Origin: Chloranthus sessilifolius
Taxonomy: Eukaryota; Streptophyta; Magnoliopsida; Chloranthales; Chloranthaceae
Length of the DNA: 64,000 nucleotides
Assembly (NCBI GenBank): GCA_021018995.1
Contig: CM037585.1
Location: 127,872,831-127,936,830 of the forward strand
Direction: 5' to 3'
The notes beneath the pieces are model-generated. The model worked only from the letters and a program-made list of their open reading frames with translations. It was not told where the DNA came from and ran no database searches. Position 1 is the first letter of the stretch, and each line of letters starts with the position of its first letter. Position numbers and translations under genes: made by a program. Shown piece after piece: positions 20,741 to 48,492 of the stretch.

Positions 20741-22010
20741 TCAACGGTGATCGATCTAATACTTGAAAATGCTTGAATTTGACGAACACTAGGTTCTAAG
20801 AAAAACTGAATATTTTGACATGTAGGATTGATAATCCCCTAGTTGTAATAAAAATGATTTTTAAAATTTGATTTCTGAAATAATAATCCTTGGAATAAAA
20901 TGAGTCAGAATTTTCGATTCGATCAGATGGCCACTAAAGGCTAGATCGATACTTTTTCGAAATAGGACAAAAATCTAGTATTTTGGCAATTAGGATAGTT
21001 GCGACGACAATTCGTGTTGATTGATTGATAGGACAGATCATAAAATGGGACTTCAGTTGATCTGTGATCAACCTGGAGCATCCCCAAATCAAGATCAGAA
21101 AATTATGTGGCATGTGATGGGCCACTAGGTGGACCCCACCAATGGCTAAGTTTAAGGGCCTTAAGACCCAAAACAGAACATTCACAGGACTGAGTACAAA
21201 ACAATAAGAAATAAACTGGAGAAAAATCCAGAAAAATTACGTTAAGTAAATGAATGGTTCCCAATATAACCCAGCCAAAAAATAGACTTTAGTTTCTGAT
21301 AATTTGACCTACACATAGTTCAAAGAAAAGGCAGCAAATTTTCCCTATTTGCACCAAAAAATCTGAGCCTCAGAAAAGTTTTGATTTTATGTGCAAGGAC
21401 TCCCCCAATAAATCTGTAAAAATTCTGGGTCAAGGATTGACCTTTTCTCCAGTCTTGTGTGAAATTTCATAAGAAATCTTCACCTACTTTGATGGCTAGA
21501 AAATTCGAAAAATCAGGACACAAACATGTGTCTAATGGCACACAGCCAGTGGCCAGAATTGACCTCTGATCGGATGGACCTGATTCCATCATAATCTGTA
21601 ATAATTAGCCTTAGAAATATATACAGAACGTATAGATGATCATTTCAGCTTTCCAACAAGTTATTATGTGTACGGTTTCAATATCGGCACCAAAAGATAC
21701 AGACTCGACATTAGAGACCATCGAATCTGGTCTGATGATCTGTTAAGAGAAACCAGATCTCTCTAATCTGGCGGCCCTGATCATATTTTTGAGTGTCACT
21801 CCCTGGGAAAGATGAGGTTGTCAATAATCTATCACCCCGTTTTGGAAGGACTCAGAAATTCAATCGTAGTCGAAAATGGTGACCCTTTTACCGCGAAGTG
21901 TCTGGTACACTTTGGAAAAATCTGTAATTTGGGGGATATGGTCAAAATCTTAACCTTCCCCATAAAACCGTAACAATCTAAGCAATGTCAGTTTACAGCC
22001 ACCACTATGG

Positions 22011-22200
22011 ATGCATTGTGAAGCCTTGATAAGTGTTAATTGGTCAACCAAGTCAATGACTGGACCTTTTGAAGGCCCAAGAGCGAATACTTGAAATAGC
22101 TAAGTATGCATTGTGAAGCCTTGATAAGGGTTAATTGGTCAACCAAGTCAATGACTGGACCTTTTGAAGGCCCAAAAGCGAATGCTTGAAATTGCTAAGT
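22011..22200 (+). repeat. 95-bp tandem duplication
   Basis: The unit starting 'atgcattgtgaagccttgat' is at 22011 and 22106 with only a few changes between copies. Confidence 0.95.
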
Positions 22201-23040
22201 AAAACTAAAAGACCTAATGCCCGGCCCATGGCTCGGTAAAATTTGAATCCGAAACCAAACATTAAAGTTATGGCCCAGCTCAAAACTCCTTTCGAAAAAC
22301 TGGTAACGGCACCTTTCGAAAGATGGTGTGTACCCGCTTGTACCCTTGGAAAGGTCCGTATATTTAGATTTGGACCTAGTGAAGGCCCTAGAGACCTAGG
22401 AAATTTACCCATGGACTTCTAAGCTTGCGAGTTTAGAATGGATTCATCCAATGACCAGACCCGAAATCTGGTATGGATAATGTTGCTGGCATCCTTATGC
22501 TTAGCCACAAAATTAAATAAGTGGGCCATAAGTGAAATTGTGACCCGTTGGGCCCAAAGCCCCAAGTAATAAAAACAAAGCCTTTAATTAATGGGAATAG
22601 ACCCGATGTCCTCTCCCCAATGGTTGAATAAATGTCACTTACGGTCCTCATGAATTTTGAGTTGCTCTGTGAGCACTTAACAGAAATCTTAGGAAAATAA
22701 CTTGATATTTGACCGATGACCTTGAAATTGAGCGAAATCGAAAATAAAGTAGTATAATCGTTAGGAGGGGATACACTGGATAAACGTCGAGGATCAACCT
22801 CCAATAACTGGAGTAAAAATGCTGATAAAAGTTATAGTCAAACAGTTGACTCGGCTCAGGTATTAGCTGAAATAGAGCAATAAGAAAACACTTAGGATAA
22901 CTGGAAATGGGCGCCCTGATGCCCTTAAAACTATTTAATCGTTTGTGCGAATAACAATAAACATAAGTCCAATACGGACTCTAAAATAAAGCGGCACTAG
23001 ATATAGAGCACGCTAAATTTATGCCAATCCTCCCTAAAGG

Positions 23041-23170
23041 TTGAGTTTGATTGAAGATTTTTGACATGGAAATGGATTAAATGATTGATTGATTGACTTA
23101 TATGGAAATTGATTAAATGAGTGATTGATTGACTTAGATGGCAATTGATTGATGCTTGATTGATTGACAA
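23041..23170 (+). repeat. Short imperfect tandem repeats ('gattgattgact')
   Basis: Units of about 40 bases with 'atggaaattgattaaatga' and 'tgattgattgactta' repeat two to three times. The flanking 23500-23640 is also patterned, with repeated 'gaatattga'. No gene. Confidence 0.6.
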
Positions 23171-25296
23171 ATATAGAAATTTGAATAATGGATTGATATG
23201 GATGAATGATAATTGATCATGGTAGAGAATATGAATGATAGGAGACATTTGATATGGGTATTGAACCTTGAAAAAAAAATACATCGAAAAATGATTGGCG
23301 AACTTAAAGAGATAAAGTCACCAAGTCAATATCAACTATGATATAAATTGATTATTGAAACTATGATAGGAAATATGAGATATTAGGAACCTACTTGAAT
23401 ATATTGAATCCAAATAAGAGACAAATTGAATTATATTGAATTGAAAAGGTAAGGAAATTGCCGGAAATTGATGGTTTAACATTTAAATAGAATATTGATT
23501 ACCGAATTCTCAATAAGAGAATTGGAATTGAAATCGAATTATTGAATATCGAATATTGATGTGCATATTGAATTTTGAATATCAAACATTGAATATTGAG
23601 TTAAAGATTGAATATGGACGACTGAACCTTGAAAATTGAACAATCGATAACGAACTTTGAAAAAATTTGAAAGTGCAAAGATGATATTGCATTGACTATT
23701 GAACCTCGTATAGTTAACCGTTGTTCTTACTAGCAGGCTCGTTATGAGCACCTTATATTCAGATGAGTTTTTAAAGTATCAGTTGAGGATTGAGTCTCAT
23801 TAGACCAATAGGGTCATTGATCCTTGTCTTGATTGATTAAATGACGAAGAGTGTCAGCCTTTGTTTGCACGACATTGGCAATCAAAGATTGATATCGGAC
23901 CATGGTTGGTGTTTTGTATCGCATCGAATTAATTAAAAGACATTTAATAATTCATTCTAATGATAAGGAAATAAGCCGATAAATAATTGAATGGAAAAGT
24001 ACTTAATGAACCAGTAAACTGTTAACTATTGAATCAGGAATTTAATTAATAAACCTTGTAAATCTGTTAATCCCAGAATCTTTGTTGAAAAAGAAAATTT
24101 TAGAGCATGTTGCTTTCTTGTCTTATAATAGTAATTGGATTTTTGTGTAGATAGCATCTTGTTTACTATAATTCGTATTCCATACTTATAATCTTCTTGC
24201 CTAATATTACTTGCAATTGTCTTTCTTATCTGTTGTTATCACAACTTGTTGTAAACCTCACTTTGCACATATCACAATGTATATCCTCTTATTTATGGAC
24301 TGTAAGTTTAGCTACATTACACTGTAGTAGAAATCATAACTTAAATTACTAAGATTTTATTAAGCTTCACCGCTTACGGCTGTTTCATGACCCAAAAATG
24401 TTAGAGTTAGGGGAGCAAGATGAGGAGAGATCCAGGAGCGACTACTGAGTTGACAGTTGAACTCGTTTTGCCTATAGTGCTACCAGCACCTGTACATAGA
24501 TGTGATATGTTCACATGTTTATTTGAATCTTTCTCCTTTCTTTTGAGTTTTTGTTAAGTCCAACACTTTTGAAATCACAGATGTATTTTTTGTAAATGGA
24601 CTTATTCTAAATATTTGTTTTTAAAAGTCGAATCTTTTGAACTACATTTCAATTGTCTTATAATTTCGCGATAAGTAGGATTTTTTTTCTAATATTTAAA
24701 ATTTGAAAACTGAAATCACCCGACCAGGTTAACGAAAATAAGAAAAGAAAAGTAAAGCTTCAGCAAAACGCTTCCACAATGATTGTAAATTATTTTAAAA
24801 AAGAAAAAAGAATGATTTAAAGGAATTTTGAAAATATCGATGGTGTGTGTCGCGCCAACCCGGCTCGTGGATCGAAATGTGCGGGGGGTGAGAGCCGCCC
24901 GACGTACAAGGCCAGGAGCTGGGGGCGTGACACCACCAACAAGCACGATCGAAGGTTTTTTCCTTAACCTTGAGTTTCCTACATCTTCTTGGTAACTATC
25001 CTGGTTTTCTCTGTACACTGGTTTTCAAATAGCAATGCTAGTGACGTCGTACATATATTTTTATCGGTCTTTCTGAGGCACATGTATAGCTTTTTTAACG
25101 AATACAAACAATTTAAAAAAAAAAAATTGGATTAATTGTTAAGATTAGGAAGTCTATTTAAAGACACATAAATATTAATAAAATAATATTAAGATTTCTC
25201 ACTATACAGTCTCTCTTCTCTTTCTAATCTTATTATTTCTTCTTTGTTTTTGATTTTCTACCATAGATGCCTTAGACCATTCAATCTATTATCTTT

Positions 25297-25376
25297 CTTT
25301 TGGAACATTGATATGGAAGAACAGCCTACATCTAATCTTTTGGAACATTGATATTGAAGAACAACCTACATCTAAT
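25297..25376 (+). repeat. 40-bp tandem duplication
   Basis: The unit 'cttttggaacattgatat' with 'gaagaacagcctacatctaat' occurs twice (25297 and 25337), with few differences. The surrounding 24933-25484 has no recognisable gene. Confidence 0.9.
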
Positions 25377-25484
25377 GGTTAGGAACGTGTCGTGTATTAT
25401 AATCTAGCTAATTTGTCTAAGTGAAAAACTTCACATGAATTAGGGTACTGGCAAGGTATCAATCTCGATATCAGTATCGGGTAT

Positions 25485-25866
25485 TGTAGAAATTATGGCA
25501 ATTAAAAAATACACACAACAAACAAAATGTAAATACAAGATTTACATGGTTTGGCAATTTTCTTACGTCCATTGGTGATGTTGAGTCCTTTTACTAATCT
25601 GCGAAAACTAGGATTACAAACCTCTTAGATCTCACCTTACTCAATACATAAATCGAGTTTCATTTAATATAACTCTAACTTATAATTAGAGTTTATATCT
25701 AATACAAAGTATAACCACCCAATATAGAATATGACGAAAATATCTTCAGTAACCTTAGAAAAATTCATCCAATATCTAATATAGCTCGACCCGCACAGCT
25801 ATGGCGGGTGTACAATCCAACCTGTTGATCAATATTGTCAATAGAATTCAAGGCACAATTTCAACA
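25485..25866 (-). repeat. Solo copia LTR (antisense)
   Basis: It begins TGTAGAAATT and ends TTCAACA. Inside, 'acatggtttggcaattttc' and 'ttacgtccattgg' are the antisense copia LTR words also seen at 17733. Flanking GGTAT and AGTAT agree at 4 of 5 bases. No internal domain is attached. Confidence 0.6.
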
Positions 25867-25961
25867 AGTATTGATCCATCTTGAGCTGATACATATTGGT
25901 AGATATATCATATAAGTGGTTTTTTTTAGAAAAAAAAAGTATCGGTATCGGCTGCAAAAAG

Positions 25962-28900
25962 TGTCACAACCCAAAATTCTACCCCATCCGAGGGCCTAGA
26001 ATCCCAAGTTATGACCCGCACGCATTCAGATACGCTAAGCGGACATACACATAATCAAAGTTCTTGTGCAAATCTGGTTCCAAGAAATCCGTGAAAGACA
26101 ACAAATAAAGGTGGAATATAAAAGCAATCATAAATACTCGAATAAATGCGATAAAATCCTGATAAACCACCAATAAAATGAAATAACAGTCAGTGACAAA
26201 TCTAATAAAATGAAATCATGGGGTCATCAACAAAAGTATCAAACGAAATACAATACCGAGTCTACAACAGTCAATAACCGGCACTTGGGTCAAAATTAGC
26301 ACCAAAATTCTCTTGATAACCAGCGGCGTTGCCCTCCCAAGGCTCCTGGTACTCAGCGCCCATAGGATCAATGAAATCAACGTCGGCAGGATCAGAATAG
26401 CCCGTGTCAACTCCGCCAATATAATCACCTGCAGCTGATAATTTTTCGTGGGATGAGTTTACTCTGTCACGTAAACTCAGTGGGATACACCACCAATCCA
26501 CCTCATACTACTCAGGTGCATTGTGGGTGCATTGCGTGAGTAATAAAAATAGTATCTCAAAACAACTGAAAAAATAATATAATAAAAACATATGCATAAT
26601 GTAAATTTTACATCATAACATAAATGCATAACCATGATTTAGACACTTATATCCTACCGTACCTCACCATATCTCGTAATATAACATATCTTATCATTCT
26701 CGCACATGCGTTGTACTTCGCATGAGCTTAACTAACATACTCATAAATCCTATATGACTTGTGCCAGAGTCGCTGCTCAATCTACCATGTGAGGGTCACC
26801 ATTAGGGCTGTCAACGGGCCGGGCTGGGTTCGGGTCGGGCCGGGGTCGGGTGTTTCTATAAGCCCTTTTTTTTAAAGATATAATGAGAGCCCGAATGTGG
26901 CCCGATAGCTAATCGGGTCGGTCCGAGCTCAGCCTGGATTTTAAATGTTGTAGCTCAAACCCGGCTCGATTAGTTATCCGGGTCGAGCCGGTTTGGGTTC
27001 GGGCTGAGTTTCTAATACTTTTAAGAGTTTTTTTTATAAGGGCCTCATTTTATCGGGCCGGGTTCGGGCTTACACTTTGCAGCCCGAACCTGAACCAGTT
27101 TCTTATCTGGGCTTAGCCCGGCCCGGCCCGTTTAATAAATGACTTAAAATATTAGGCCCGAACCCATTCCATTCAGGCCGGGCTCGAGCTGAAACTCAGC
27201 CCGTTGATAGCCCTAGTCACCATAATATCATACCACCATATCATAATGTTATCTAATCGCCCTCCCTATCCTACTCATACTCTCCACCCAGCCTAATGGG
27301 GAGACTATGCGCAAACGTAACTCATAGCATACTCATGCTCACACTGTCTCCCAGAGATCTGTCTTGGTTGTAAGATGTTATTGCCCTTATGGTGACTACG
27401 CAAGGAACAACACGTACAGACTGAAGTTCTTAATCTTTTGCTAGCCTACACAGCGGTGTCTTATTATCGCACTCATAACTTGTCTTATCTCATAGTTATA
27501 ACATACTCTTACAACTTAATTCTAAGACGAGTTATAGTGAGATAACCTCACTAAATCACGCTTTCCAAGGAAAGGGTTTCGTAGTAATTTGGATGCACTT
27601 CGTGTAATAGTAACGAGACCTCTCTATCATAGAAGTTCTGAACTATCATAGAGGGGTTACATCCGTACATGGACGCCTAAATTCCAAGTTTCACGTGACC
27701 ATAAAGAGATCTCATTACAACTAAGGCTCAAGGCCTGAATCCCATATCGTAACTCATATCTTATTCTCTCATATTAAAACTCGGGGTGATGGGTCACTGG
27801 ATATGTCACTTTATACAAGGTTACACTGAATTAATACTCACCCTACTCGTCATGATGTCTCATACTACCATGAGTTGTAAGGCATGTGAATACGATTTAT
27901 TTCTCACTTTAATACCATTGCGACGAATTACCACGCCCAAGCGTAGGCATGATCTCATACACTCGCGTATATATGACCTAACTTACTCATAACTCATATA
28001 TCATAATCAAGATGGAAGTACAAAACTATCATACACACAACATAGATTCACATTTAGATTTAGTTATGTTTATACATATATTTATTTACATTCACATCAA
28101 TACAAATATAGAATAGAGTAGTTATTAGTATGATTTCGAAAATGTGAAGGTCAGAGTTCGATTTTTACGACGGCATCGAATTTCTAACACTTCGTGTTAT
28201 CAAAGAGATAGCGTTTAAGCGATAAAAGTAATATATATAGACTACTATAATTAAATGCTTAAATTAAAAAATACAATAATTCTAAGTTAGGTAAATCATG
28301 GCCATCGATCGAAACTTACTTGTGATTAGCATGCATTAAAAGTTTTGGTCGTGATGAGATGAAATTATGAGGTAAATGATGAAATTTTGTTCGGATGAGA
28401 ATCGATCGTTCAGTTTTGGAATCGATCGATCGGAATTATAATTAAATATGACATTCAATTTAGTTCAGAATTGGTCGAAAGACCTTATTTAAGATATAAT
28501 ATACACAAGAATTTTTTGTTATAAAATTATAAAATAACATTAAATTTATGTAGCCCTGGATTATTCAAAACTGATCCCGACTTGTCGCTCTATTTTGACC
28601 TCTAAAACATCAGATTCATGAAATGATTATTTCACAAAAAGTTGTAAAGTTTGTTGTCTTCTTTCTAAGGTCGCAAGATTCATGTCAATCCGATGTCAAA
28701 ATAAAACGTTGTGGCTAAAATATCGAAACTAGTACATCGATGGTCGTGAGCTCGGGTTCTTAGCCGAGAGTTTAGGCTTGTGGCTACGAGTTCGGATCCG
28801 AAACTTCAAGACGATGCAGCTCTTAGTGTATATGTGATTAAGAACATGAAAGGTTATAGTTTGACCTTGTAATTTAAAAGTTTTCATGATATCATGGTGT

Positions 28901-29963
28901 TCGCTTCGAGGTGATAAAAATAAATATATAATATATTATAATCACATAGATATATAAAAAGATATGAATATTTAAAGTTTAGATCTTAGGGCTTAATAAA
29001 ATAAGAATATAGACTTGTAACAACAATATATCATTACAGTTTTAGTAGAAAGATAAATTACTAATTATATAGATATATCATATTTATAGTATTTTAGGGC
29101 TTAATAGAAAAGTAAAATATTAAATAATCAAACAAAGAGATCGGTTAAAAAGAGAAACAAAATATAAACCGACTTACAAATCATATAACTTTAAGGGAAA
29201 ATATAATATTAAATATGTAGGTTTATTAGAATTAAGAAATATTAAGGTTTAAATAAATAAAATATTAAATAGCCAAACAAAGAGGATTTTTTGAAAAGAA
29301 AAAAATTATATAAACCGACCTACAAAATATACACTTTTAAGGGAAAACATAATATTAAACATGCAAATCTATTCATTTATAAGATATTGAGGTTTAAGTA
29401 AGATTTTTAAACTCGTCGATGTGCTATCAAACGCATCCTACGCGACGAGATCTGAGAAGAATAAGATGGATTGATGGATGCCCTCCTCTTGAAGCGTGAA
29501 CGGTAGATCTAGGGCGATTCGGGTTGAAAAGGTCGATGCCCAAGGCGTCGGTTCGTCTAAGTCTTGGGAGAGAATAATTTCTAATTATAAAGAGTAGAGA
29601 GCTTTTAAAATTTTATATATAATGGTATAAAGTTTTAGATTAACTCTACTTAAGACTTTTCGTAAAAAATTTAATAAAATATGAGTTTTTCCATGAAATA
29701 AGAGTTCGCTTGAGAAAAGGTTTTGTTCTAGCGCTTTTGTGTAAGCACAAAAGTAATTGGTGTTTCTCTCTCGGAATTGTAGTTATATTATTTGACTTGT
29801 TTCATCTCTTAAAGGATGTAACTTTTTATATTATTGTCGGAAATCGATATTATATATCGTTAGAAGGGTCATTACAAAAAGATATAGAAAAAACTATTAT
29901 TGTCGGAAATTGTAGTTATATCATGAGTCTAATATTGATATAGAAAAAATCAGGGTCCTTACA
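25962..29963 (-). repeat. Gypsy-type solo LTR, copy B
   Basis: The plus-strand left end TGTCACAACCC is the reverse complement of the right end of copy A, and homology continues for several hundred bases (gtccgctta, gtaaactca and related blocks). The right end is CCTTACA at 29963, followed by AAAAG, which equals the AAAAG before 25962. An alternative right end, CATTACA at 29876, is also followed by AAAAG because this border is locally duplicated. A hAT MITE is nested inside. The short minus-strand frame at 26271-26501 lies in the LTR and is not taken as a gene. Confidence 0.7.
26803..27215. mobile_element. hAT MITE with perfect 8-bp TSD
   Basis: The ends TAGGGCTGTCAACGGGC and GCCCGTTGATAGCCCTA are inverted repeats with one or two differences. 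GTCACCAT flanks both sides (26795-26802 and 27216-27223). Subterminal parts repeat 'ggttcgggct' and 'gcccga'. The 413-bp size and lack of coding sequence make it a non-autonomous hAT element. Confidence 0.92.
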
Positions 29964-29970
29964 AAAAGAT
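29830..29970 (+). repeat. Local duplication at the LTR border
   Basis: 'attattgtcggaaat' and 'ttacaaaaagata' both occur twice (29831/29897 and 29872/29960). This makes the outer end of LTR copy B ambiguous. Confidence 0.7.
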
Positions 29971-30044
29971 ACCGATCTTAAGATAGTCGAAGGAAGAGAT
30001 TTGAGGACATTCATGGCCTGTGAATCGATCTCGTTGAAATCTCC

Positions 30045-30311
30045 ATGAGTAGTGGATTCCGTATGATCCGCATACCTTACAGGCATTTGAAACCGACAAA
30101 ACTCGACTTGGTTGGTTTGAAACAAGTTTCCCAAGAAATCGACCTTAATTCTAGGGTTTCGAGTGCGAAATCTAATGATTCAGGTCCTTATTCTACTCCT
30201 CCACGGTCAAATTCTTGCAGTATGAAGACTTTGATTCTTTCATGTATGGTTGCTGTCGGAGTTCAGTTCAGTTGGGCTTTGTAACTATCGCTTTTGACAC
30301 CATATAATCAG
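30045..30311 (+). pseudogene. SUC3: Sucrose transporter (SUC3/SUT2 type) exon 1, with stop
   Basis: SUC3/SUT2 proteins are proton-sucrose carriers with twelve membrane helices. Here only the first exon is present. It reads IPYRHLKPTKLDL early, a polar linker, then LSCMVAVGVQFSWAL, the first membrane helix. After WAL the next codon is TAA (30282-30284) where the family has Gln, and the frame then continues LSLLTPYNQ up to a good donor site, CAG|GTGATT at 30311. The family has LSLLTPYIQ there, so one more residue is changed. The ATG at 30045 may not be the original start. No later exon exists in the window. The fragment is dead and lies at the left of a run of other gene fragments. Confidence 0.85.
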
Positions 30312-31437
30312 GTGATTTGATCTAGATTCATTTATTTTTATGCAATGATCGGATGTACGGAGTGTGACAACCGTTTGATTATTTGGTTGTTGAAGTATAT
30401 GAAATTCAAATGAAAAAGAGATCGAAAATAGGAGTATAGTGATCCAGGGTTAGAATTTGCATAAAATTGATGTTTTCAAAACTAGAGTTTCGTCTTTTTT
30501 GTTAGTTTTTGTTGCGATCCCTGATAGAAATGTGCGTTTGATACCTAATTTTTTATTGTTTATTATTTTGCATGCCAACTGTTTAATGAATTTTCCCTAT
30601 GGGAGAGAAAGCAATAAAAGCAGCTGGTCCTCACTTTTTCTTTTTCTTTTTATTCAAAACAGTAATACTTTCTTGTTTTTCTTCTTTTTATTCAAATCCT
30701 CCCTTAATCTCTCAAGACTGTAAAACATTTGCAATCCAAAATGCACCATAATTAATTAATTAATGCACCATAAAGAATCCTCAGAACAACTGTGTCCGCA
30801 TTTTGATCAAAACAAGCCCAACCCCCACTTAGTCCTTGATTCATTCATGCTTATGCTCACAATTTTTCTATAAGACCTCTCAATGGCTTGGTATTTGTAC
30901 AAAATGATGTCTTCGTCTATAAGACCTCTCAATGGCTATAGTAAAACTCTTCAAACAATGTTTTCCTACTGTCTTAAACTATCCCTGATGCTTGTTGACT
31001 TCAGTTAACCTGGTTTGATCAAGTATTGAGCAGTTGGCCAAGGTTAAACTGCTTTTGTCATGCTTCACGTATTCATAATTTTGTATGGTCAAAAGGGGTC
31101 AATGTGCTTATGATGATTGATTAGCTAATTATGCATAACCCATTGGTAGAAAATAACTTGGTAACTGAATCCTGGAATAAACCTAAATTTTCTTTTCTAT
31201 TATGACCTGGCTACTCAGTTTGAAATTGTCAAAAGGGTCCTATGCTCCTTGCAGTTTTTGGAAACTAAGCAATCACTTCTACTGATCAATTTTTATTTTT
31301 TATTTTTTTCAGTATAAGATCTTTGTTTGACTCATTTTTTCTTAGTACTTATTGCTTAAAACAGTGTTGTTTGTGTTAATGGATCTCTATTCTCTATGCA
31401 TCTCCTTGTTTACAAAAAAAATTGAAACTAAATATAG

Positions 31438-31506
31438 GAAGAGAGTGCTTCAGCTATCACACTGGCAAACAAGATGGTAGAATTTTTGAAGTGGCAGCGT
31501 GTTCAG
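31438..31506 (+). pseudogene. VLN: Villin fragment, exon a
   Basis: Bounded by TATAG| and |GTAATT, the 23 codons read EESASAITLANKMVEFLKWQ plus RVQ. This matches the linker before a gelsolin repeat in plant villins (SLANKMVESLKF-like, PVQ). Villins bundle and sever actin filaments. The piece continues in frame into exon b. Without the ~20 other exons it cannot make a working protein. Confidence 0.8.
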
Positions 31507-31599
31507 GTAATTTATCTTTCTAACTAGTATGATATCAATCTCAAGTTGAGCTTCTTGGTATGCTAGATTTTTAATAGTTTCCTGATTATTTAATTTCAG

Positions 31600-31668
31600 G
31601 CTTGCATCTTCAAAGGAAAGGAACCTATTCAATTCTTTTCAATCTTACAAAGCTTTATCGTTTATAAG
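31600..31668 (+). pseudogene. VLN: Villin fragment, exon b
   Basis: Bounded by TTTCAG| and |GTTTGT, the 23 codons read ACIFKGKEPIQFFSILQSFI then VYK. The villin family has ARIYEGKEPIQFFSIFQSF at this point, so the identification is firm. Both introns are phase 0, and the small intron a-b (93 bases) is retained, so this was copied from genomic DNA and not from mRNA. Confidence 0.9.
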
Positions 31669-31797
31669 GTTTGTACACATATAAAATTTTGTTATTTGGA
31701 AAGGGACATGTACTTTTCAGTACAAAAAGCTTTCTTGAAGTTTTACTTATAAATTTTTGTAATGTAAGCTGAACAATGATCATTGTAAACGTTGCAG

Positions 31798-31934
31798 GGA
31801 GGTATCAGCTCTGGGTATAAGAATTACACAACAGAGAAAGGTGTAGCAGATGATACATACAGAGAAGATGGTCTTGCTTTGTTAGAGTTCAAGGTTCTGG
31901 ACCAGATAATATGCAAGCAATTCAAGTTGAACAA
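31798..31934 (+). pseudogene. VLN: Villin fragment, exon c with 1-base deletion
   Basis: After TTGCAG| it reads GGISSGYKNYTTEKGVADDT, the villin sequence that follows QSFIVFK, then YREDGLAL. At about 31881-31884 one base is missing: the proper frame resumes as RVQGSGPDNMQAIQVEQ and ends at a donor |GTAAAT. The exon is 137 bases, one short of 46 codons, and fits a phase-0 exon once the missing base is allowed for. The shift leads to a stop shortly afterwards. No further villin exon is visible downstream. Confidence 0.88.
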
Positions 31935-33614
31935 GTAAATCTGCTCAACTTATCTCGTAGCTGTAGTTTCTTGAATGCTAATTTGATCAATCATACGACA
32001 CAACTTTCAATCGTAGCTCTACTGGTTCCCAAACAATAGTTTCAGCCATTTGACTTGGGACCATATCGTGACTTATATTGTTTCTTATTTACCACGTTGG
32101 ACTCTTAGTCTGAAAAAAAAATAATAATAAAAATAATATATATATCGAAGTGCAGCGGTGAAGTTATCAATGAACCGAGTGAATAAAAAATTGAGACTTA
32201 GTGTTACTCTTGTGAAAGGGTAGAATTAAGTATTTTCCCATGTTATAGCAACTATAACTAGAAACATCTTCAACATTAGAAGGACCTAAACTACCTGCTG
32301 AAAGTTCAATATTTGAATCTACTTGTAAATATGTAACCTAGCTTGCAATGCGATAACCAAAAGAAAATGTTAGAGTAATTCCTGCTGGTGAAGTGGGGAG
32401 AGCAACATTCATGGGGATGCAAAGAGTCTGAAAGAGAAAGTGTTTCTTAACACTATGCCCCATCCTGATATGTTTCTTAGAAAGTTATTCCTGCATAATA
32501 CAGATAGAGGAAGAAAAAATAGCATCCAATCTAGATTTAGATAACTAGCTGAGAGATTAAATTCACAGAATTATGGGTCATGCAAGATGCGTATAAGAGA
32601 TAGCTGCGTTGAACTGTTGAAACTTATTTTCATAACAATCATGGGTGAGCCGTTGACAGTGTAAATAGTAAGACGAGAAAGGCAGAAAAACAATTTATCA
32701 AATGAGAGGCATCCAAGGTCATATGGCTGGAATCTCCAGAATAAAAAAAATCCTGTTGGTGAAGATATACTTTCGACAGAAGAAGGGATGGGCATTGTCT
32801 GAAGAACTACTGAAGTCGATCAACAACCAATGTCTCAAAGACTGGATGTGTTAGGAGCATGGGCAGTGTAGAGTGAAGCTTCATAAGATTTAATGGAGTA
32901 TGAGATTGTTTTTCTAATGATTGCAATTTATTCTTCTTGGGGTGTTGAGTCTTACGGAGTTTTGACATTAGGTATCCGAACAATTGGTTACCAGAACAGA
33001 ACCGATTCCAGTTTTCTGAGAAGAGTCCAAGAATCGTAGATGAGTTTCTTCAGCTATTAAGTTTAGATAAGGCAATATCAACAGTAAGAAGGTGAACAAT
33101 GCATCAATGACTCTCAGATCTGTTCAAATTTAAGCTTCACCTTGTATCCACTAAATTCTGTTGTTAGGCCTCTCCTTCTAAGCTCTGATGAAAGGGTCCT
33201 GCAGCTCTTTTTGAGCTTTGTTCAGCAGATTTCCCTCCCGTTAACTACCTCAGCTGGCATGATTTGGCTCTTTTCTTGCTTCTTTTGGTGTCTTTTAACA
33301 GGCCCCAAAAATGATTTCAACAACACCACCCTGTATAAGATACACTCCATCTGATCTGATCCCTGATGATGTTGAGAGCCTCCATAAGGGGTAGGAACAA
33401 AAGCTGAAAAAGAGGCCTCTTTGAAAGGACCCGATCACTGGCCATTTGATGGAAACCATCATATTGCCCCCATATATTAGTGGTCCATGGATTCATGCTG
33501 TGCGCAAACTATACCGATAGATACCTACGGGTTTGGTTTGCTGGTGATACTTTATTTTCAAAACCCAATGATGGACCAGTCCCCTTATTTTCATGTCTTC
33601 AGGTGCCACAGGGC
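31935..33614. other. Spacer between gene fragments, origin unclear
   Basis: No coding frame with family features is visible on either strand. The frames at 32571-32795 (minus) and 33142-33354 (plus) show none. The start may be villin intron. The end may be taxilin intron, because the next exon downstream of the hAT-like insertion is taxilin. Confidence 0.4.
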
Positions 33615-33864
33615 CAGTGGTGGAACCACGCATAGATGAGTGCGGGCACTCCAAAACTTTTTTTTTATTAATTATAAAACCTAGCTACCCAAAACCCACG
33701 CCCTCTCTCCCCCTTTTCTCTCTCTTTTCCCTCCCTCTTTTCCTCTCTCTAAACCCATCGCTCTCCCACCCAGCGCCCTCCCTCTTTTCTCTCTCTAAAA
33801 CCCTAAAGGGTAAAAGCCTAAAAGCCTAAAACCTCTCTAAACCAGCGCGGCAGCACCTCCCTCT

Positions 33865-33899
<35 letters not shown>

Positions 33900-35960
33900 C
33901 AAGTCGCCCGATGTCCTCTCTTCCTCTTCTTCTCGGCTCGTCCGCCTGAATCCGATGCTGGCGACAGTTTCGCTGCCCTCCTCGGCTCCTCGTGCCAGCC
34001 GCCACCCTCCGGTAAGCCTCTCTCTGGCTCTCTCTCACTCTCAGCCCCCTCTTCAGTCTCAGGCTCTCAGTCTCAGCTTCTTCTTCTTCTTCTTTGTCTC
34101 TCTCTCTCTAGATTTAGGATTTTATTCTTTTTTTTTTAATTGATTTATGGTTAGGGCCTTAGCCCTTCCCATTGCCAAATCCTTTCTTGAGCGAAGTTAA
34201 TGCCCATATGTCTGATTTTGGGCCTGTATTTGTTTGATTCTTTTTCTTTTTCTTTTTCTTTTTGGCTTCAATTAATGCTAATTTTTTTGTAGAAAAAAAA
34301 ATCTTGTTAGTTTGCTTTTGATGTTATGAAAAAATAGATTGCTTCAATAATTTTTCTAGAAAAATGTTGAACCTGCAAATTTTTTAGTCATTTATTGCAG
34401 TATTTGGGAGAAAATGCAAGACTTGTTCCTACAATTTTCTATAATTTGGGGCTATTTCTTCCTAAAGATGGTGATTATGTAACTAAAACCTTGATCTACA
34501 TAAAATCAGTTGGTTGAATTTTCATAGGGTAGATGGTTTGACCTGGCCCCTGGGGTGAATTTGGTAGCTACTATGGTTTTTAAAACCAAGTTCTTGCAAT
34601 TAGCCATGAGACAGACACCTCAATATGGATGCTGAAAAGTAGAGTCATTTCATGTCGTGGAGTCATGGCTAATTACAAGACGTATTGGCTAATTGCAGAG
34701 ACCAGTGGAATCCCTATAGAGTACCTCTATTCGCGCCAACAGAGGTTTACTGAAAGCGCCAATGTCCGAAACCCCTTGAAACCCATGGCCTGCTTGGAAT
34801 CAGATGATGGAGATCATTTTTTGCCGTCTCTTCCGCACAATGGATCTGAAAACCAAAAGCATACCATCAGACGGTCAATTTCTATTCGACAACGCCATGG
34901 GTTAATTGCAGAGAATAATGGAATCTCATATTGACCTCGCGTTATAGTGGAATGGCCATAAGCAAGGCATCATCAGACCTTTGTATATTTTTAACTTTTT
35001 TTTCCCATTTGTTGTCATAAGAAAATTTAATGGGTAAGTTCTCAGTTGGGCTATACGGGTATATATGTTCAACTCTGTATGGATCGAAGTCGTACATAGT
35101 TTTAACTCAGTCAGTCACTTCTAAGGGAGCAGATTAGAGTACCCCAGAAATGAACGGCTAGGACGGTAGCATGTAAATGCAATATTTGAATATTCTGTGG
35201 CTAAATCAATCCAGTACAGTACCAGGGTTTCATTTCACATTTTCACTAGATTTTCACTAGTATAGTACAGTACTAGGGTTTTATTTTTATTGAAATTTAG
35301 AATTTATTTGTTAAATATTAATTGTATTTTGAATTTTATTGTGTAGGTTTTCAACAAACCGGATTTGTCGGATCGCACAATCGGATTTGAGTTAAAATTT
35401 CTTCGGATCATACTAAATCGGAGGAAATTTTTCTTGTCTACATTTAACTTTTTGTAATTCTATTTTATTGGCTGATAATGATTCATTTATGTTTAGGAAA
35501 TGTGGATATGTTTAGGATAAATATGTGGATAAATTTGTATGTGATGTGTGTGACCTTGTGTTGTGTAGATCCCAAATCCCTAATTTCCCTTGAACCCTAA
35601 ATCCTTGAAAAGGCATAAATTCCTAATTTCTAAAGCCCTCTCACAGAGGTCCAATGTATTCTTTTCTAGACTAACCTTCCATTTCTTTGAGTTCTTCATG
35701 ATACGTAGATGACTTCAAAACAATTTATAATAATAATTCAATATCTCAGTTTAATGGATTTAAAATATATATAAAAAATGAGAAAAAGATAAAATATTAC
35801 AGGAAATTCAGAATACTTTCATGTCCCTAGTACTTCAATGCTGCCAAGTCATAAGCATGTGCAGCTGCTTCTTCATTGTTATAAGCTCTTGAGAATCCAT
35901 AAAAAAATAGTAATAATTCATCTTGCGCCCCGGTAGATGAGAGTCCTGGTTCCGCCATTG
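33615..35960. mobile_element. hAT-like element, 2.3 kb, decayed
   Basis: The left end CAGTGGTGGAACCAC and the right end GGTTCCGCCATTG are imperfect inverted repeats of the common plant CAGTGGCGGAACCAGG type. Near the left end lie CT-rich runs, including (CT)n at about 33867-33894, and an exon-like segment ending CTCCG|GTAAGC near 34012, which may be a leftover 5' exon. No transposase domain was recognised. A copy of the MITE family of 16262 appears near 34770-34900. A clear 8-bp TSD was not found. Confidence 0.55.
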
Positions 35961-36085
35961 GCACCCAATGCCTACATGAGTGGAGCCAATAGGCCAGTTT
36001 TCTGCTACAGTTTTTGCTCTATATTTATATTGTAGTTATCTGGTATGGTGTAGCCGATGACTTCTACTAGTGCCCATTTTTGCAG

Positions 36086-36163
36086 GATGAATGTATGAGA
36101 GTCTCCACAGAAGGACAAAACATGAGATTAGATATGTCTACAAAATTCCATGATGCAATTAAG
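36086..36163 (+). pseudogene. Taxilin-like exon
   Basis: Between TTTGCAG| and |GTTTGT, 26 codons read DECMRVSTEGQNMRLDMSTK then FHDAIK. This corresponds to the coiled-coil of plant taxilin-type proteins (DECKRVSTEGQNLRLDLS-like, KFQDAIK), which bind syntaxins in animals. The exon is open and both splice sites look usable, but no neighbouring taxilin exon is present. The identification is from memory of the family and is less certain than villin. Confidence 0.6.
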
Positions 36164-36236
36164 GTTTGTGTAATTTTCACTTCTATCCTTTTTGCTGGAA
36201 ATTGTTATCAATACTATGTTCTATTTTCAAATTTCA

Positions 36237-36294
36237 AAATCAATGAAGTCAGGATCAAATTGCCCAATTTGCAAAGTTCCATATCGATGGAGAG
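36237..36294 (+). pseudogene. BRCA1: BRCA1-type RING finger, second half
   Basis: KSMKSGSNCPICKVPYRWR matches the end of the RING domain of plant BRCA1, the ubiquitin ligase subunit of DNA repair. The last Cys pair (C-P-I-C) of the zinc site is present; the first part of the RING is not. It ends at a good donor, AGAG|GTATGT. The left border has no acceptor and lies only about 75 bases after the taxilin exon, so two unrelated genes are joined in what looks like an intron. Confidence 0.65.
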
Positions 36295-36796
36295 GTATGT
36301 ATGTGCTTTTTATTTTTATATTTGTATATGGGTCTCTCTTTTTTATGGTACATGGAATGCTAGAAAAGCTTGTAGTTCCTGTAATCGTTTTTTTTTTTTT
36401 TTTCGGTGAATAAGAAAACAGATGCATGTACATGGAAATGCACAAACAAGATTGTGACCTGTGATTTGTTAAATTCTCAAACTCCAATACCATTCAAAAT
36501 TCCAGCTTTCATATATTATAATATTTATTTGGCTAGGAATTCTTCCGAAACTTAGTAGTATCAGTCTCTGAATTAATTGTATGAAACATTTACAAAAATC
36601 ACTCTCTCCTCAAATTTTACCTTTACTTGAGAAGCATCACATGAATTGTTCTATGACGCTTGCTGCTGTTTAAAACAAGTCCTTTATTGTGAAGTCATTT
36701 TGTAACTACTTTGTTTCTTTATATTGGAGTCTAATCCCTTATTTGCTTCCTTTTATTACTTATTAATTTTTCTGTTTTTGGTAATGTAGTATTCCC

Positions 36797-36876
36797 AGAC
36801 AGCTGTTGTTCCCCGGGATTCTATTTTAGCATCTGAAGTAGAGTAGCTGAACTCCATTAAGGCCGATTTAGTGGTA
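36797..36876 (+). other. Exon-like segment, unidentified
   Basis: Between ATGTAG| (36789-36794 region) and |GTACTT, one frame reads SQTAVVPRDSILASEVE, a stop, then LNSIKADLV. The frame is protein-like on both sides of the stop, which suggests a decayed captured exon. I do not recognise the protein. Confidence 0.4.
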
Positions 36877-37197
36877 CTTTTATGCTTCTCTTGTTCTTCA
36901 TAATTGAATTCATTATTTATGGTGTTTCGCTGCCACTGGCAAATGCACTAGATTCATATCATCATCGCCTTGTCCCATCTACTTGGGGCTTGCAATCATT
37001 ATGCAGATGCACTAGATGATATATCAACATGTTCTTTGGATGCTGCTAATTTATTATTGTAAAATGTTTGATTCATGAAATAAGTCAAATAACTATTATG
37101 TTAACTGATTCATGAAATTATCTAATTATCTCTAGTATTAGGCTTATCAGAAATAAGACCTGGGATTTTAATCCTAGTTTATATCTCCCCTTTACAG

Positions 37198-37252
37198 ATA
37201 GCTGAAGATTATTCTCATTGCGAATTCCTACTCCGACTCGGATATTGCCCAA
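37198..37252 (+). other. Exon-like segment, unidentified
   Basis: Between TTACAG| and |GTATGC, one frame reads IAEDYSHCEFLLRLGYCP. The flanking splice signals are good. The protein family is not recognised. Confidence 0.3.
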
Positions 37253-37378
37253 GTATGCTTTCTAAATCACATGCCATGTATCCCTTTCTTAGGATTCACA
37301 TACACTTCATCATTCATGTATGTTGGTAGGTAACCAATTTTTTTCGTAGGTCCTAAAATCCCTGTGTTAATTTTTCAG

Positions 37379-37489
37379 TGCCGGCTTTTCGTGATGTTAT
37401 TGATGTACCTCTTGTAGTGAGAAGATTACACAAATCAAGAGTGGAGGTGTGGATCATGCATCTAGTTGAAAGCGCTTCCATGGATTGAA
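37379..37489 (+). other. Exon-like segment, unidentified
   Basis: After TTTTTCAG| one frame reads PAFRDVIDVPLVVRRLHKSR then VEVWIMHLVESASMD before a stop. It may be an exon of a captured gene; I do not recognise it. Confidence 0.3.
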
Positions 37490-37518
37490 ATGCTTTTTGT
37501 ATAAGTTTGTCATAATTA

Positions 37519-37672
37519 GGTGGGCGAGAGCAATCGGTCTGTGATGCTTTGGGCTATAGTCCGCTCAAGAGGTGACACAACAATTGGAGTCACTGATAAG
37601 CATTGGGAGGAAATGGAAGGAGATCATCGATGTCACTGATAAGCTTACATATAGCGTCCACGTAAGTAACTA
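37519..37672 (+). other. Exon-like segment, unidentified
   Basis: One frame reads SAQEVTQQLESLISIGRKWK then EIIDVTDKLTYSVH and ends at the strong donor CAC|GTAAGT. It looks like a real amphipathic coding exon, perhaps coiled coil. Stops precede it in the same frame (near 37550). The family is unknown to me. Confidence 0.4.
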
Positions 37673-38700
37673 ATATGTTTAATGCTGCCGAATCCTCTCT
37701 TCTTACCTGACACATTCTGTTTGCTATCACAGGACAATTAAAGAAGGGACAAATCAGTCGGGGTGATACCCCGTTTGAGCATTATTCACTTGAATTGTCA
37801 TTGTTTGGGTCTATAATCTATGAGAAACTGAGAATTGGGAAGTGTGGATTTTGGATATATATATTTTTGTCCTCCCTTATTTCTCTTTTCCTTTCGGGGT
37901 TTATTAAGGACCTATCAGCTTAGATTGTTTTTTTCTTCTTTAAACATAAACATGAATAATGCACTTCGAACATTATGCAACTGGGGTTGTATTTTATATA
38001 ATAAGTTGTGTGCTTTTACTTATTTAAGTGGTTTTTATTTTTTTAAATGTTAAACATGTTGTGTTCTTTCAGTTCAATGTACCTTAATTTTTTTTGCTTT
38101 CAATTCAATGTACCTCAACTAGTGAAGACTAGTTCATATGCAAGTCTTCCTCTCATGATTAGATCACTGTGGAAGACATATGCAGAGCAGTAGCACAGTC
38201 GAAGGGTGCAGTTGCCCTACTTTAGGGAAGCTGTTGCATCCAAGCTATCAACAGGTTGGATCACCATCCAATAATGCAGTATGTCTTTGGCACCATCTGT
38301 GGTACATAAGATGCATGAAATTTGATCCCAAGTTAGACCCTCCCCTTGATTACAGGTCATCCACTAGTTGTGGTGCATGTGTCATTAAATTCCAGCAGCA
38401 CATGGGAGCACCTAGTTTATCAATTGAGAGATCCAGGTGGCAGGCCAACATGTAGATGGGACTCGGCTCAAAATGCATGCTTGCAATCCTCAAATTGTCA
38501 AAATACTGTTTAGCTATCCATATGAAGGTTCTTGTGGGTGTTTGATCAGACGGTAGAAATCGTTTAGTGGCATAATCTTTGGGCCGAGTGTAACGTAAGC
38601 TATGACAATCTGTACCACAAGTTACAGAATTGTTGAAGTGTTCTAAATGTATAAAATTAAGAGATGTGCATTATGTGAATGAATGTATCATAACATGAAG
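37673..38700. other. No gene recognised
   Basis: T-rich, intron-like or UTR-like sequence. The open frame at 38180-38455 has no family feature that I know and no codon pattern that convinces me. Confidence 0.4.
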
Positions 38701-39013
38701 GTTGGCCAAATTATTATTTACTTTTGGACAGTAAAAAAATATTGTATTAAAAAATTGCATAAAAAAAAGCATTAAAAAAAATAGTATTTAAAAAAAAAAA
38801 ATTGCATAAAAAACGATAACCTAAATTAGTCGTTTTTCTATGGCTGTTAAGAGTTATCGTTGTTGAAGTTCATAAACGACTATCGTATATGGTAGTAAAA
38901 AAAATAACTGTTTTTTTTACAATTGTCTCCTCGACTATCAAAGACAATCGTTTATTTGGAGAAAAAAAACGATTGGTTAGGGTAGTCGTTTTTTTGGTTT
39001 TTTCATGCAGTGA
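38700..39013. mobile_element. CACTA (En/Spm) right terminus
   Basis: The sequence ends ...TTTTTTCATGCAGTG at 39013, whose reverse complement CACTGCATGAAAAAACC is a CACTA-type end. The preceding 250 bases carry repeated short words on both strands (tagtcgttttt, aacgactatcg, aacgattgg, gataacc), as CACTA subterminal regions do. No matching left end was found nearby. It lies about 1.3 kb to the right of the last exon-like fragment. Confidence 0.5.
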
Positions 39014-39042
39014 TATCAATACCATCCTGATACGTATATCGA

Positions 39043-39196
39043 GGTGGTATCAGTATCATTTCTTGGGAAAATTAATAAGTATCAGCAATACATATCAGAT
39101 TAGTTTTGATGCCATAATAGGTGGTATCAGTATCATTTCTTGGGAAAATTAATAAGTATCAGCAATACGTATCAGTTAAGTTTTGATGCCATAAGT
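39043..39196 (+). repeat. 77-bp tandem duplication
   Basis: Units start at 39043 and 39120 with 'ggtggtatcagtatcatttc' and differ at only a few positions. 'gtatcag' words are shared with the area around 25455 and 25935. Confidence 0.92.
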
Positions 39197-45027: not shown

Positions 45028-45037
45028 ATATATATAT

Positions 45038-45268
45038 GGGAGCCGGTTAGGTCCTCCAATGGAGGACTGTGATCGTCCTCCAAGATCCACGTGGAGCTCC
45101 ATGTGGCACTCAAAACACTTTTTGGATGCCACGTGGAGCACAGGTGGACAATTTAGATCAATATAAAAAAATATAATTGAAAATTAAATTTAAAACCCAA
45201 GGTCCACATGGCACCCAAAACGTATTTTGGGTGCCACGTGGAAGGTTGAAGGACAGAGACCTTTTCCT
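45038..45268 (+). mobile_element. (TA)n-associated MITE, copy A (shortened)
   Basis: It starts GGGAGCCGGTTAGGTCCTCC, has 'aatggaggac', 'ccacgtggagctcca' and 'gtggcac(t/c)caaaac', and ends near 'gaccttttcc'. It lies between TATATATA at 45029-45037 and a (TA)n run at 45269-45289. It lacks the middle of copies B and C. Confidence 0.75.
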
Positions 45269-45289
45269 ATATATATATATATATATATA

Positions 45290-45670
45290 GGGCGCCGGTT
45301 AGGTCCTCTAATGGAGGACGGTGACCGTCCTCCAAGATACACATGGAGCTCCATGTGGCACCTAAAACACTGTTTGGGTGCCACATGAAGCACAGGTGGA
45401 TGGTTTAGATCAATATTATAAAAAAAGAATAGTGAAAAAAACTTTTTAAACCACCAGTCAAAGTTTGTCGGGTTTCATTGGTCCACATTTCACGATTCAA
45501 AAAACACACAATGGAGATGAGTTTTCAATTATTATTTTTTTTCAAAGATGATTTAAGTAATGCACCTGAGCTCCACGTGACATCGAAACAATATTTTGGG
45601 TGCCACGTGGAGCTCCACGTGGAAGCTTGGAGGACGGTGACCATCCTCCCATGGAGGACGGACACCTTTT

Positions 45671-45672
<2 letters not shown>
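45290..45672 (+). mobile_element. (TA)n-associated MITE, copy B
   Basis: It starts GGCGCCGGTTAGGTCCTCTA and ends GGAGGACGGACACCTTTTCC, followed by a (TA)n run of about 57 bases (45674-45731). Ends are inverted relatives through 'gtcctcca.tggaggac' palindromes. Frames through it reading ...IYIYIY are the microsatellite. Confidence 0.8.
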
Positions 45673-45733
<61 letters not shown>

Positions 45734-46449
45734 GCTCCCAAGCAAATTATCTTGAGCCACCCTGGAAGGCCAGCCTTTTTTTATGCATGGCTTTACCCTG
45801 GAAGGAAAATGAGCATTGCCCTTTAAGCAAGGTGCTCCCGTGGTTCATGAGAAGGAAAAATGACTCATCTTTTGTTGCAATTGGCACGAGATGAAAAAGG
45901 AGAGCTTCGTCTATTGTTGAACAGCAGAGTCAATCCGTTGTTGGCATTGCTTTGTTTTTCTCTCATTTCTTATCAGCGAGTTCCGATCCTTTTGTCATAT
46001 TGGTCGTGGGTTGAGAACGGGAGTTGAACTCTATGAGATCTAATCTCATTTTTCTTTATTTTCTTTCATTTTGTCATAATAATGTATTAGTTTGCTGAAA
46101 TTTTCGTAGTGAGATGTAACTCAAGATCATTTGGAACGGAGGAAGCGAAAAATGTGTTATTTTTTAATGTTCAAATATAGAAGTGATTTCTAATTTTGAA
46201 ATAATTGCTTCACTAAGTCTACTTAAATATTATTAGTAAAAAAATCATGTTATCTTGTATACGAAGATAGCCATTTTATTAATTAAAGATGGTATTCGAC
46301 TGATTCAATAAATGATGAAGATAAATTCTAATCCAATTTTTTACACCAATAATCTTCCGATCATAGCTCACCTATCAAGCGGCTTACATGATGATTTCAT
46401 GTGGTACAAGGCCAAAACCATGATGCTTTTTTTATAATAAACTTATACT

Positions 46450-46985
46450 TTTGACAAACCCATTGGAGGCATTTTGAGAGACTCAAATGATGACTTTATC
46501 ACCTCTTTCCATGGTCCTACTAGATCTCATGACATCACCCATGCTGAACTTGTTGCTATTCTTTATGGGCTGAATGTGCCCAAAGATTCAACCATCTCAA
46601 TGCTCCAGGTGAAATTGGATTCTTTTGGTGCTATATCTAATATAAGTGGATCCAATCATATTCAGTGGAAACATCGCATAGTTATAGAGCAAATTCGAGA
46701 TATGAGTCAGAAGTTTCAAAGAATCAAGTTCTCTCACATATGGAGGAAAATCAATCAATCTACCGATCACCTCACCAAGCAAGAATTAAATGAATCAACT
46801 GTCGTCCAATGGAATAGTGCAAACAATGTTGGTTTGATTCCTTTACAATTGTTCTCTCACTTAGGGAAATATCTAATTAAAATTTTCTATCGATTGTAAT
46901 CTACTCTTTTCTTTTATTAGGGTGGGGACCCTCCAACCCCAATTACCCATCAAAAAAGAAAATAAAAATAAAAAATAGAAATACC
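46450..46985 (+). pseudogene. LINE RNase H domain and A-rich tail
   Basis: The open frame 46474-46899 reads GGILRDSNDDFITSFHG (start just upstream), THAELVAILYGLN, VKLDSFGAISNIS, FSHIWRKINQSTDHLTKQ. These are the DG..., E.LA...GL, D(S) and H..R..N..AD.LAK blocks of the plant-type RNase H found at the 3' end of LINEs. The second half of the catalytic set is altered (TDHLTK for ADxLAK). After a stop the sequence runs into 'atcaaaaaagaaaataaaaat', an A-rich LINE tail. It is the longest undamaged frame of retroelement origin here, but only a 5'-truncated fragment. Confidence 0.75.
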
Positions 46986-47830: not shown

Positions 47831-47837
47831 AAAAAAA

Positions 47838-48290: not shown

Positions 48291-48492
48291 AGCCTTAAAA
48301 TCACATTTGAGTGTGATGTGTGCCATGTGATTTTAGGGCCATTTGTTTGGGATTTGTGCCACATAGAATAAAAAATTGATCATATGAGGGTACACTCATG
48401 GTCTCAAGATCCTTTGCGTGGAAGATTGGAGTGAAAAATGATCACCATCACCCAATTCCAAGGACTCAATGGGTTTTGGAGGTAGCCCCCCT

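Follow-up and report, generated by a model that had tools for sequence, protein, structure and literature searches.

Host gene fragments in Chloranthus sessilifolius that very probably form a left-truncated relic of a gene-capturing CACTA transposon

Gene fragments and their source loci

Fragments of unrelated host genes lie next to each other between approximately 29.94 and 39.01 kb of the 64,000-nucleotide stretch analyzed here (the window). The initial annotation had placed this mosaic at 30045-37672; its fragments proved real, but the mosaic is larger and is interrupted at 33615-35960 by a nested hAT-like element. A parent-gene search in the same 2.17-Gb genome, as that annotation proposed, recovered separate loci on C2, C3, and C6. 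The SUC3, villin, taxilin, and RING pieces share the + orientation, as had been claimed for all fragments. Gene identities are based on parent exons (for taxilin, on the neighboring gene).

The SUC3-type sucrose transporter fragment (30008-30514, + strand) comprises the previously annotated exon 1 (30045-30311), with an in-frame stop and a donor site at 30312, and part of intron 1. It matches C3:26557433-26557.9k(-) at 88%. In this parent, exon 1 is open and more sucrose-transporter-like exons are present, which match TIGR01301 when joined by eye (E 1.1e-40). On the left of the fragment is a CACTA left subterminal remnant (29943-30007, + strand, its start approximate and set by eye), which includes one arm (matched at 29991-30007) of an 86-bp palindrome known from sister elements and does not align to the C3 parent gene. 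On the right are two overlapping pieces of ~75 bp that are repeated in the genome (30522-30595 and 30561-30635, both +), the first of which is found within other CACTA elements and is contiguous with the SUC3 piece in a copy at C4:5595711. Short + strand pieces matching the C8:141068104 region follow at 30634-30760 (82%) and 30841-30869 (97%).

The villin gene fragment (30878-33137, + strand) contains three exons (31438-31506, 31600-31668, and 31798-31934, the third with a 1-nt deletion) plus introns, which confirms the earlier reading of 31438-31934. Its source is C6:66899452-66906129(+), matched in two + strand segments, C6:66899452-66900765 (93%) and C6:66905192-66906129 (95%). The parent exons are open and match gelsolin structures (best E 2.8e-8), and we take the gene to be villin as opposed to another gelsolin relative. 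No Pfam family was matched by the parent exons, and a structure search with the window exons gave no match. The piece is uninterrupted in the window and the parent has an extra 4.4 kb at this point with a 6-bp overlap; the genomic DNA was probably copied prior to an insertion in the parent. Three small pieces follow, at 33133-33304 (+; C6:21553864, 93%, with further copies on C4, C9, and C1), 33314-33387 (+; 74 bp, C7:135206587, 95%), and 33416-33458 (43 bp, C2:188077165, 95%).

The element at 33615-35960, which we take to be hAT-like from its end motif, has ends CAGTGGTGGAACCA and CAATGGCGGAACCA that are alike at 12 of 14 positions, and its best relative is C2:150596881-150602247 (87-90%). 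It separates the half containing the SUC3 and villin pieces from the half that runs from taxilin to the right end, and no clear 8-bp duplication was found around it.

The taxilin gene fragment (35971-36237, + strand) consists of a single exon (36086-36163), its two splice sites kept, plus intron sequence on either side, and 35976-36237 matches C2:144805934(-), 17 Mb away, at 94%. The exon itself matched no Pfam family. PF09728 has only two matches in the genome, the better of which is 13 kb from the source on the same strand, and this supports the proposed taxilin identity. The adjoining BARD1/BRCA1-like RING gene fragment (36231-36514, + strand) begins inside an exon, so that its acceptor is lost, and keeps its donor at 36295. 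Its source, C6:10118726-10120270(-), was matched in two parts. The parent exons match several RING families in Pfam (zf-RING_6 'BARD1-type' only below its cut-off) and RING structures, the best being TRIM, with BRCA1 and BARD1 also matched, consistent with the half RING of BRCA1 type reported at 36237-36294. Next are a fragment of C6:63250402-63252483(-) (36594-37492, + strand), whose parent has 1.2 kb extra between the halves and no Pfam match, and a short piece matching C4:1334405 (37493-37591, + strand, 94%). Pfam searches with three short window pieces gave no match.

Exon-like pieces had been proposed up to 37672, but 37595-37672 is multi-copy CACTA subterminal DNA and contains no host exon. 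The claim that introns and splice sites were kept holds for the introns and for most sites, but not for the RING acceptor. Reading frames are damaged, by the stop in SUC3 exon 1 and the frameshift in villin, and no stop-to-stop frame of at least 120 aa was found within 29943-39012. The window element is most likely immobile and most likely encodes no intact product.

A CACTA right end and an intact sister element

The right terminal part of a CACTA element (37595-39012) is multi-copy, at 79-86%. It closes with CACTGCATGAAAAAACCAAAAAAACGACT, the - strand reading of 38984-39012, within which the end CACTGCATGAAAAAACC is located at 38996-39012, and the triplet following 39012 is ATA. In three further copies (L010, L011, and L012) homology extends to the identical end (CACTACTTG.../CACTACGTG...). 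The 29-bp end has 368 genomic matches with up to 3 mismatches, compared to 0 forward and 0 reverse for the reversed-pattern control, so that the right end is a repeat-family terminal sequence of the type beginning CACTA/CACTG. In the last 300 bp, ACGACT and ACGATA each occur twice and ACGATT, AGTCGT, AATCGT, and TATCGT once each, as plain counts without a statistical control.

An intact sister of 5,066 bp at C2:112789431-112794496 has both CACTA ends, with TTT on either side and a left end type that begins CACTACGTCAAAATG.... It carries the same SUC3 piece in the same orientation, starting at base 401, and therefore is a case of a host gene piece enclosed by two CACTA ends. Its right end matches window 38833-39012 at 69% (E 1e-18), and no mosaic piece other than SUC3 was found in it. 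Four of the five SUC3-piece loci examined (L004, L005, L007, and L008) lie inside a CACTA end and the fifth (L006/L037) has a degenerate end; window 29978/29991-30141 aligns to all of L004 to L008. The initial annotation had named CACTA among the candidate capture-type transposons, and the right end and the two-ended sister bear this out.

Collections of gene fragments are also carried by Helitrons and Pack-MULEs (PMC1947982), and one of these might have built the mosaic with the CACTA end adjacent by accident. This seems very improbable, because no more than 4 bp separate the end of the last captured piece from the start of the CACTA subterminal region (37591/37595), the SUC3 piece sits within the complete CACTA sister, and the join at 37492/37493 recurs inside another CACTA right end. 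The latter element (L019, C2:115497941) contains window 37265-37591 across this join, in a segment ~1.2 kb inside its right end. To the left of it, C2:115490500-115496400 (L062) showed neither a left end nor any homology to window sequence.

A left CACTA end was found neither in pattern scans of the whole window nor among the CACT sites at 17.0-30.7 kb inspected by eye. The place where it is expected is occupied by a high-copy repeat (27216-29865) with 138 matches listed, 17 of which stop at window 29861-29865, and 26500-26802 matches the same family. A whole-window repeat scan gave 84 inverted pairs, and among the 25 longest there is none that flanks the mosaic. Since the second inverted end is missing in the window copy, it is described as a relic of a CACTA element and not as an intact member. 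A second end type, CACTACRTGAAAATG..., has 675 copies (343 forward and 332 reverse; control 0 and 0). It was dropped as the left end of the window family after a comparison by eye of the C1 and C2 matches listed, which cover approximately the first 100 entries for each type (out of 368 and 675), showed one correctly oriented pair within 50 kb. The end types belong to two lineages, two of the three types being opposite ends of one family. Since CACTA elements with at least two types of end (window/sister and CACTACRTGAAAATG) share pieces of this mosaic, a pool of captured fragments might pass between CACTA lineages, with elements acquiring fragments both from one another and directly from genes, although we regard this as a tentative and rather doubtful proposal. 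Two right-end relatives (L039 and L040) were rejected as transposase carriers, as by eye their frames resemble a Ty3-type retrotransposon.

Stepwise capture and its alternatives

Intron-bearing host gene DNA adjoins a CACTA end and its sources are elsewhere in the genome, as in Pack-CACTA elements, and the region is very probably a left-truncated relic of a non-autonomous gene-capturing CACTA (En/Spm-type) transposon (Pack-CACTA, or transduplicating CACTA). This supports a capture-type transposon copying genomic DNA as the source of the mosaic. That the mosaic consists of genes broken in the ordinary way or of tandem pseudogenes, or results from an assembly error, is exceedingly improbable: no point in favor was found, the parent loci are distributed over C2, C3, and C6, where the SUC3 and villin exons are open, and the pieces join mid-intron or mid-exon. 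The outcome that the initial annotation held would refute it, one gene broken by assembly, was thus not seen, and neither was its other one, separate arrivals with their own borders, as scans for CACTA ends found none between pieces.

Distances to the parents differ between pieces. The JC distance is 0.114 ± 0.016 for SUC3, 0.139 ± 0.031 and 0.070 ± 0.027 for RING, 0.043 ± 0.006 and 0.053 ± 0.008 for villin, and 0.033-0.038 for the C6:63.25-Mb piece. The SUC3 distance is 2-3x that of villin, taxilin, or the C6:63.25-Mb piece, and the unequal SUC3 and RING versus villin distances are evidence against one capture event, which suggests that the pieces were captured stepwise. The proposal that a single transposon built the mosaic is upheld as far as a capture carrier is concerned, but has to accommodate these divergences, the hAT-like interruption, and the missing left end.

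The same observations could be read as two or more gene-capturing elements side by side, one with SUC3 and villin and the other with taxilin, RING, and the right end, the hAT-like element marking or hiding the border between them. The position of that element, its lack of a clear 8-bp duplication, the missing left end, and the distinct SUC3 divergence are all compatible with this arrangement. We consider it unlikely, as no CACTA ends were found between the halves in pattern scans, the villin, taxilin, and C6:63-Mb pieces on either side are similarly divergent, and the 5,066-bp sister unites the SUC3 piece with the same kind of right end. From the sister, both halves presumably belonged to one carrier. 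Among the best-scored candidates of the genome searches, none reproduced the entire mosaic, which leaves its movement as one unit hypothetical; partial sharing besides the window includes the one join in L019 and the C4:5595711 copy, which covers 30161-30595.

Several joins show short overlaps, of 2 bp at 30634-30635, 5 bp at 33133-33137 (of which the villin parent shares only the 4-bp GCTT), and 7 bp at 36231-36237, where L020 and the RING parent agree exactly and the taxilin parent (L018) differs at one base. Among 20,000 random draws, overlaps of at least 5 bp had a frequency of 0.007 and of at least 7 bp 0.0003. At the other joins, overlap is absent or the pieces are up to 79 bp apart; since the alignment borders are also imprecise, the overlaps are only suggestive. 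An excess of C-to-T changes as a sign of methylation was not convincing (75 C>T/G>A versus 59 T>C/A>G in six alignments, with the parent-to-window direction assumed).

We infer that host exons and introns from at least four gene-assigned loci and several others would have been copied one at a time into the space between the ends of the element and linked in series, with a single direction for all four gene pieces that were identified. Most likely, DNA adjoining or between nearby CACTA copies was enclosed by two usable ends, and internal gaps were filled and rejoined in repair following excision. Later, the hAT-like element would have inserted and the left end would have been lost, with the high-copy repeat now in its place.

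Comparable elements and significance

Tgm-Express1 of the soybean wp allele is a 5.7-kb CACTA element with five fragments, and chimeric transcripts were detected by RT-PCR (PMC1947982). As there, a CACTA element in the window carries exonic and intronic DNA from several unrelated host genes, with splice sites kept; in contrast, it lacks a left end, contains a nested hAT-like element, and has more and shorter pieces, and a chimeric spliced transcript, as suggested in the initial annotation, would be hypothetical here. Identification of the Tpn1 elements of Ipomoea nil, a known mutagen, relied on two TIRs and on duplications (PMC5105172). By description, they are likewise non-autonomous CACTA elements with conserved terminal regions and an internal part replaced by captured host genes, whereas the window element has one end missing. 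Pack-CACTA and other Pack-TYPE elements in Arabidopsis, rice, and maize, annotated by TIRs and TSDs, similarly contain, enclosed by CACTA ends, coding DNA that was captured from several loci, and a proposed capture route in which neighboring insertions are re-mobilized as one would fit the window element (PMC8903248, reviewed in PMC13317346). Unlike these, the window copy is without a left TIR, which its sister has.

Exon shuffling by CACTA transposons is already established in principle. The region described here is a traceable case, in which the main pieces are assigned to source loci, several joins are located to within a few bases, and differing divergences suggest repeated capture. Taken together with the sister elements, it would allow one to reconstruct how and in which order the pieces were captured.

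The CACTA carrier and its surroundings

The window occupies C2:127872831-127936830 of a genome of 2.17 Gb in 32 contigs, whose genes mark it as that of a plant. Pieces of the window (20000-26600, 26500-30045, 30045-30311, 30142-33620, 33400-35990 and 35950-38600) were queried separately against this genome; since these searches score best candidates only, copy numbers are lower bounds. The segment 37595-39012 is repeated at least twice on C10, on C14, on C4 and in part on C11, at 79-86% identity. In three relatives (L010, L011 and L012) the homology extends as far as a terminus of CACTA type, CACTACTTGAAAAAACC or CACTACGTGAAAAAGCC, whose window counterpart is CACTGCATGAAAAAACC at 38996-39012; in a fourth (L013/L040) it stops at 38735. 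The 29-bp end had 180 forward and 188 reverse genome matches at up to 3 mismatches, against 0 forward and 0 reverse for a reversed-pattern control. A complete sister element (C2:112789431-112794496; 5,066 bp, both ends, TTT on both sides) holds the SUC3 piece from its base 401, and its right end is related to window 38833-39012 (69%, E 1e-18); no window piece beyond these two was found in it. The repeated right end and the sister bear out the capture-type transposon that the initial annotation had proposed as carrier.

Judged by the layout of the sister, the left end would be expected near 29578. A high-copy repeat (27216-29865) covers that position, and among its 138 listed matches 17 end at window 29861-29865. 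Pattern scans of the window and inspection of CACT sites by eye found no left CACTA end. A nested repeated element with hAT-like ends occupies 33615-35960.

Other repeats were observed nearby. A 77-bp unit is tandemly duplicated just outside the right end (39042-39194), and many of the listed copies of a high-copy repeat at 20000-24933 share one end point (window 24932-24933). Inspection by eye found open frames resembling copia-type reverse transcriptase, i.e. retrotransposon remains, at 14301-15758 (+), and a 152-aa open frame like a plant RNase H-like retroelement domain at 46441-46899 (+). Related repeats cluster, direct and inverted, around (AT)n tracts at 45028-48889. Elsewhere, L011 (C10) and L012 (C14) each contain a pair of CACTA right ends oriented towards one another at a distance of about 600 bp; the flanks printed are identical, and the arrangement represents either a composite unit or a duplication.

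Presumed parents of the captured pieces

Presumed parents were found for the fragments named in the initial annotation (exon 1 of a SUC3-type sucrose transporter, villin exons, a taxilin-like exon and half a BRCA1 RING), and these identifications were supported. The 30008-30514 piece matched C3:26557433-26557.9k (minus strand) at 88%, where the exon is open and followed by further sucrose-transporter-like exons. The parent exons, joined by eye, matched TIGR01301 at E 1.1e-40, and the window exon, which carries an in-frame stop, at E 7.9e-7.

The villin piece matched C6 on the plus strand in two parts, 30878-32205 to C6:66899452-66900765 (93%) and 32200-33137 to C6:66905192-66906129 (95%). In the window these parts are contiguous, whereas about 4.4 kb of additional sequence separates them in the parent; six bases at the border are common to both parts, and similar repeat sequence lies at either side of this stretch in the parent. 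On the simplest reading of these sequences, the 4.4 kb would have been inserted in the parent after the window copy was made. The parent exons matched gelsolin structures, and a Pfam search returned no family for them; the third villin exon of the window has a 1-nt deletion. At the piece's left edge is a 22-bp direct repeat (30867-30888 and 30916-30937), possibly filler DNA from repair.

The 35976-36237 piece matched C2:144805934-144806196 at 94%. PF09728 had two matches in the genome, and the better (C2:144792455, one stop in the scored frame) lies 13 kb downstream on the same strand, so the taxilin gene there was taken as the parent. The RING piece matched C6:10118726-10120270 in two parts (36231-36395 and 36410-36514). 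The parent exons scored above cut-off for general RING families and below it for zf-RING_6 ("BARD1-type"), and matched RING structures, best those of TRIM proteins, also BRCA1 and BARD1; we take the gene to be BARD1/BRCA1-like. The 36594-37492 piece matched C6:63250402-63252483 at 94%, where a Pfam search returned no family. Smaller pieces matched C8, C6, C7, C2 and C4, and piecewise searches scoring best candidates found no source locus for 30515-30521, 33459-33614 or 36515-36593.

Timing and sharing of pieces

Jukes-Cantor distances to the presumed parents were 0.114 +- 0.016 for the SUC3 piece, 0.043 +- 0.006 and 0.053 +- 0.008 for villin, 0.055 +- 0.015 for taxilin, 0.033 +- 0.008 and 0.038 +- 0.010 for the C6:63-Mb piece, and 0.139 +- 0.031 and 0.070 +- 0.027 for RING, the last over 165 and 105 bases only. 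With the parents' own rates uncontrolled, the SUC3 piece looks older than the villin piece, from which we infer that the mosaic may have grown stepwise.

Several pieces recur elsewhere. The SUC3 exon (30045-30311) had at least 36 genome matches, 33 of them limited to part of its first 97 bases. Flanks were inspected for five of these 33: in four (L004, L005, L007 and L008) a CACTA end lies about 400-445 bp outside the piece, with the same orientation, and in the fifth (L006/L037) the end is degenerate. One of these loci is the complete sister element described above. In all five fetched loci of a 30522-30595 unit (L052, L053, L054, L057 and L058), a different type of CACTA end, with 675 genome occurrences, lies about 1.2 kb outside the unit; the overlapping 30561-30635 unit was so placed in none of its four fetched loci (L055, L056, L059 and L061). 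Locus L019 (C2:115497941) holds 37265-37591, across the 37492/37493 join, with a CACTA right end at a distance of about 1.2 kb. A CACTA end at C2:36395375 lies 3.3 kb from a 115-bp part of the C6:63-Mb piece that is 97% identical to the window and to the parent alike; the second end of that element was not seen. Either certain genes were captured repeatedly or pieces pass between CACTA elements.

The taxilin piece occurs in at least eight further loci (L020-L027), multiplied by a repeat family, and no CACTA end was found in their fetched flanks. Six exon bases present in the window and the parent (L018) are absent from the five copies aligned (L020-L024), yet at several other positions the window agrees with these copies against the parent. 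Because the shared bases conflict, either the parent or a copy like L020-L024 could be the direct source.

Splicing and coding capacity

Splice sites had been described as kept, which holds for the donors of SUC3, villin, taxilin and RING and for the acceptors of villin and taxilin, but the RING acceptor is lost. A chimeric transcript of the mosaic would be possible; no intact protein is expected because of the stop, the frameshift and the truncated exon. In a report on Tgm-Express1, captured exons were spliced into many chimeric transcripts (PMC1947982). Gene-capturing CACTA elements are already known (PMC13317346, PMC5105172, PMC8903248), and the window element is a damaged, newly found example of this kind.
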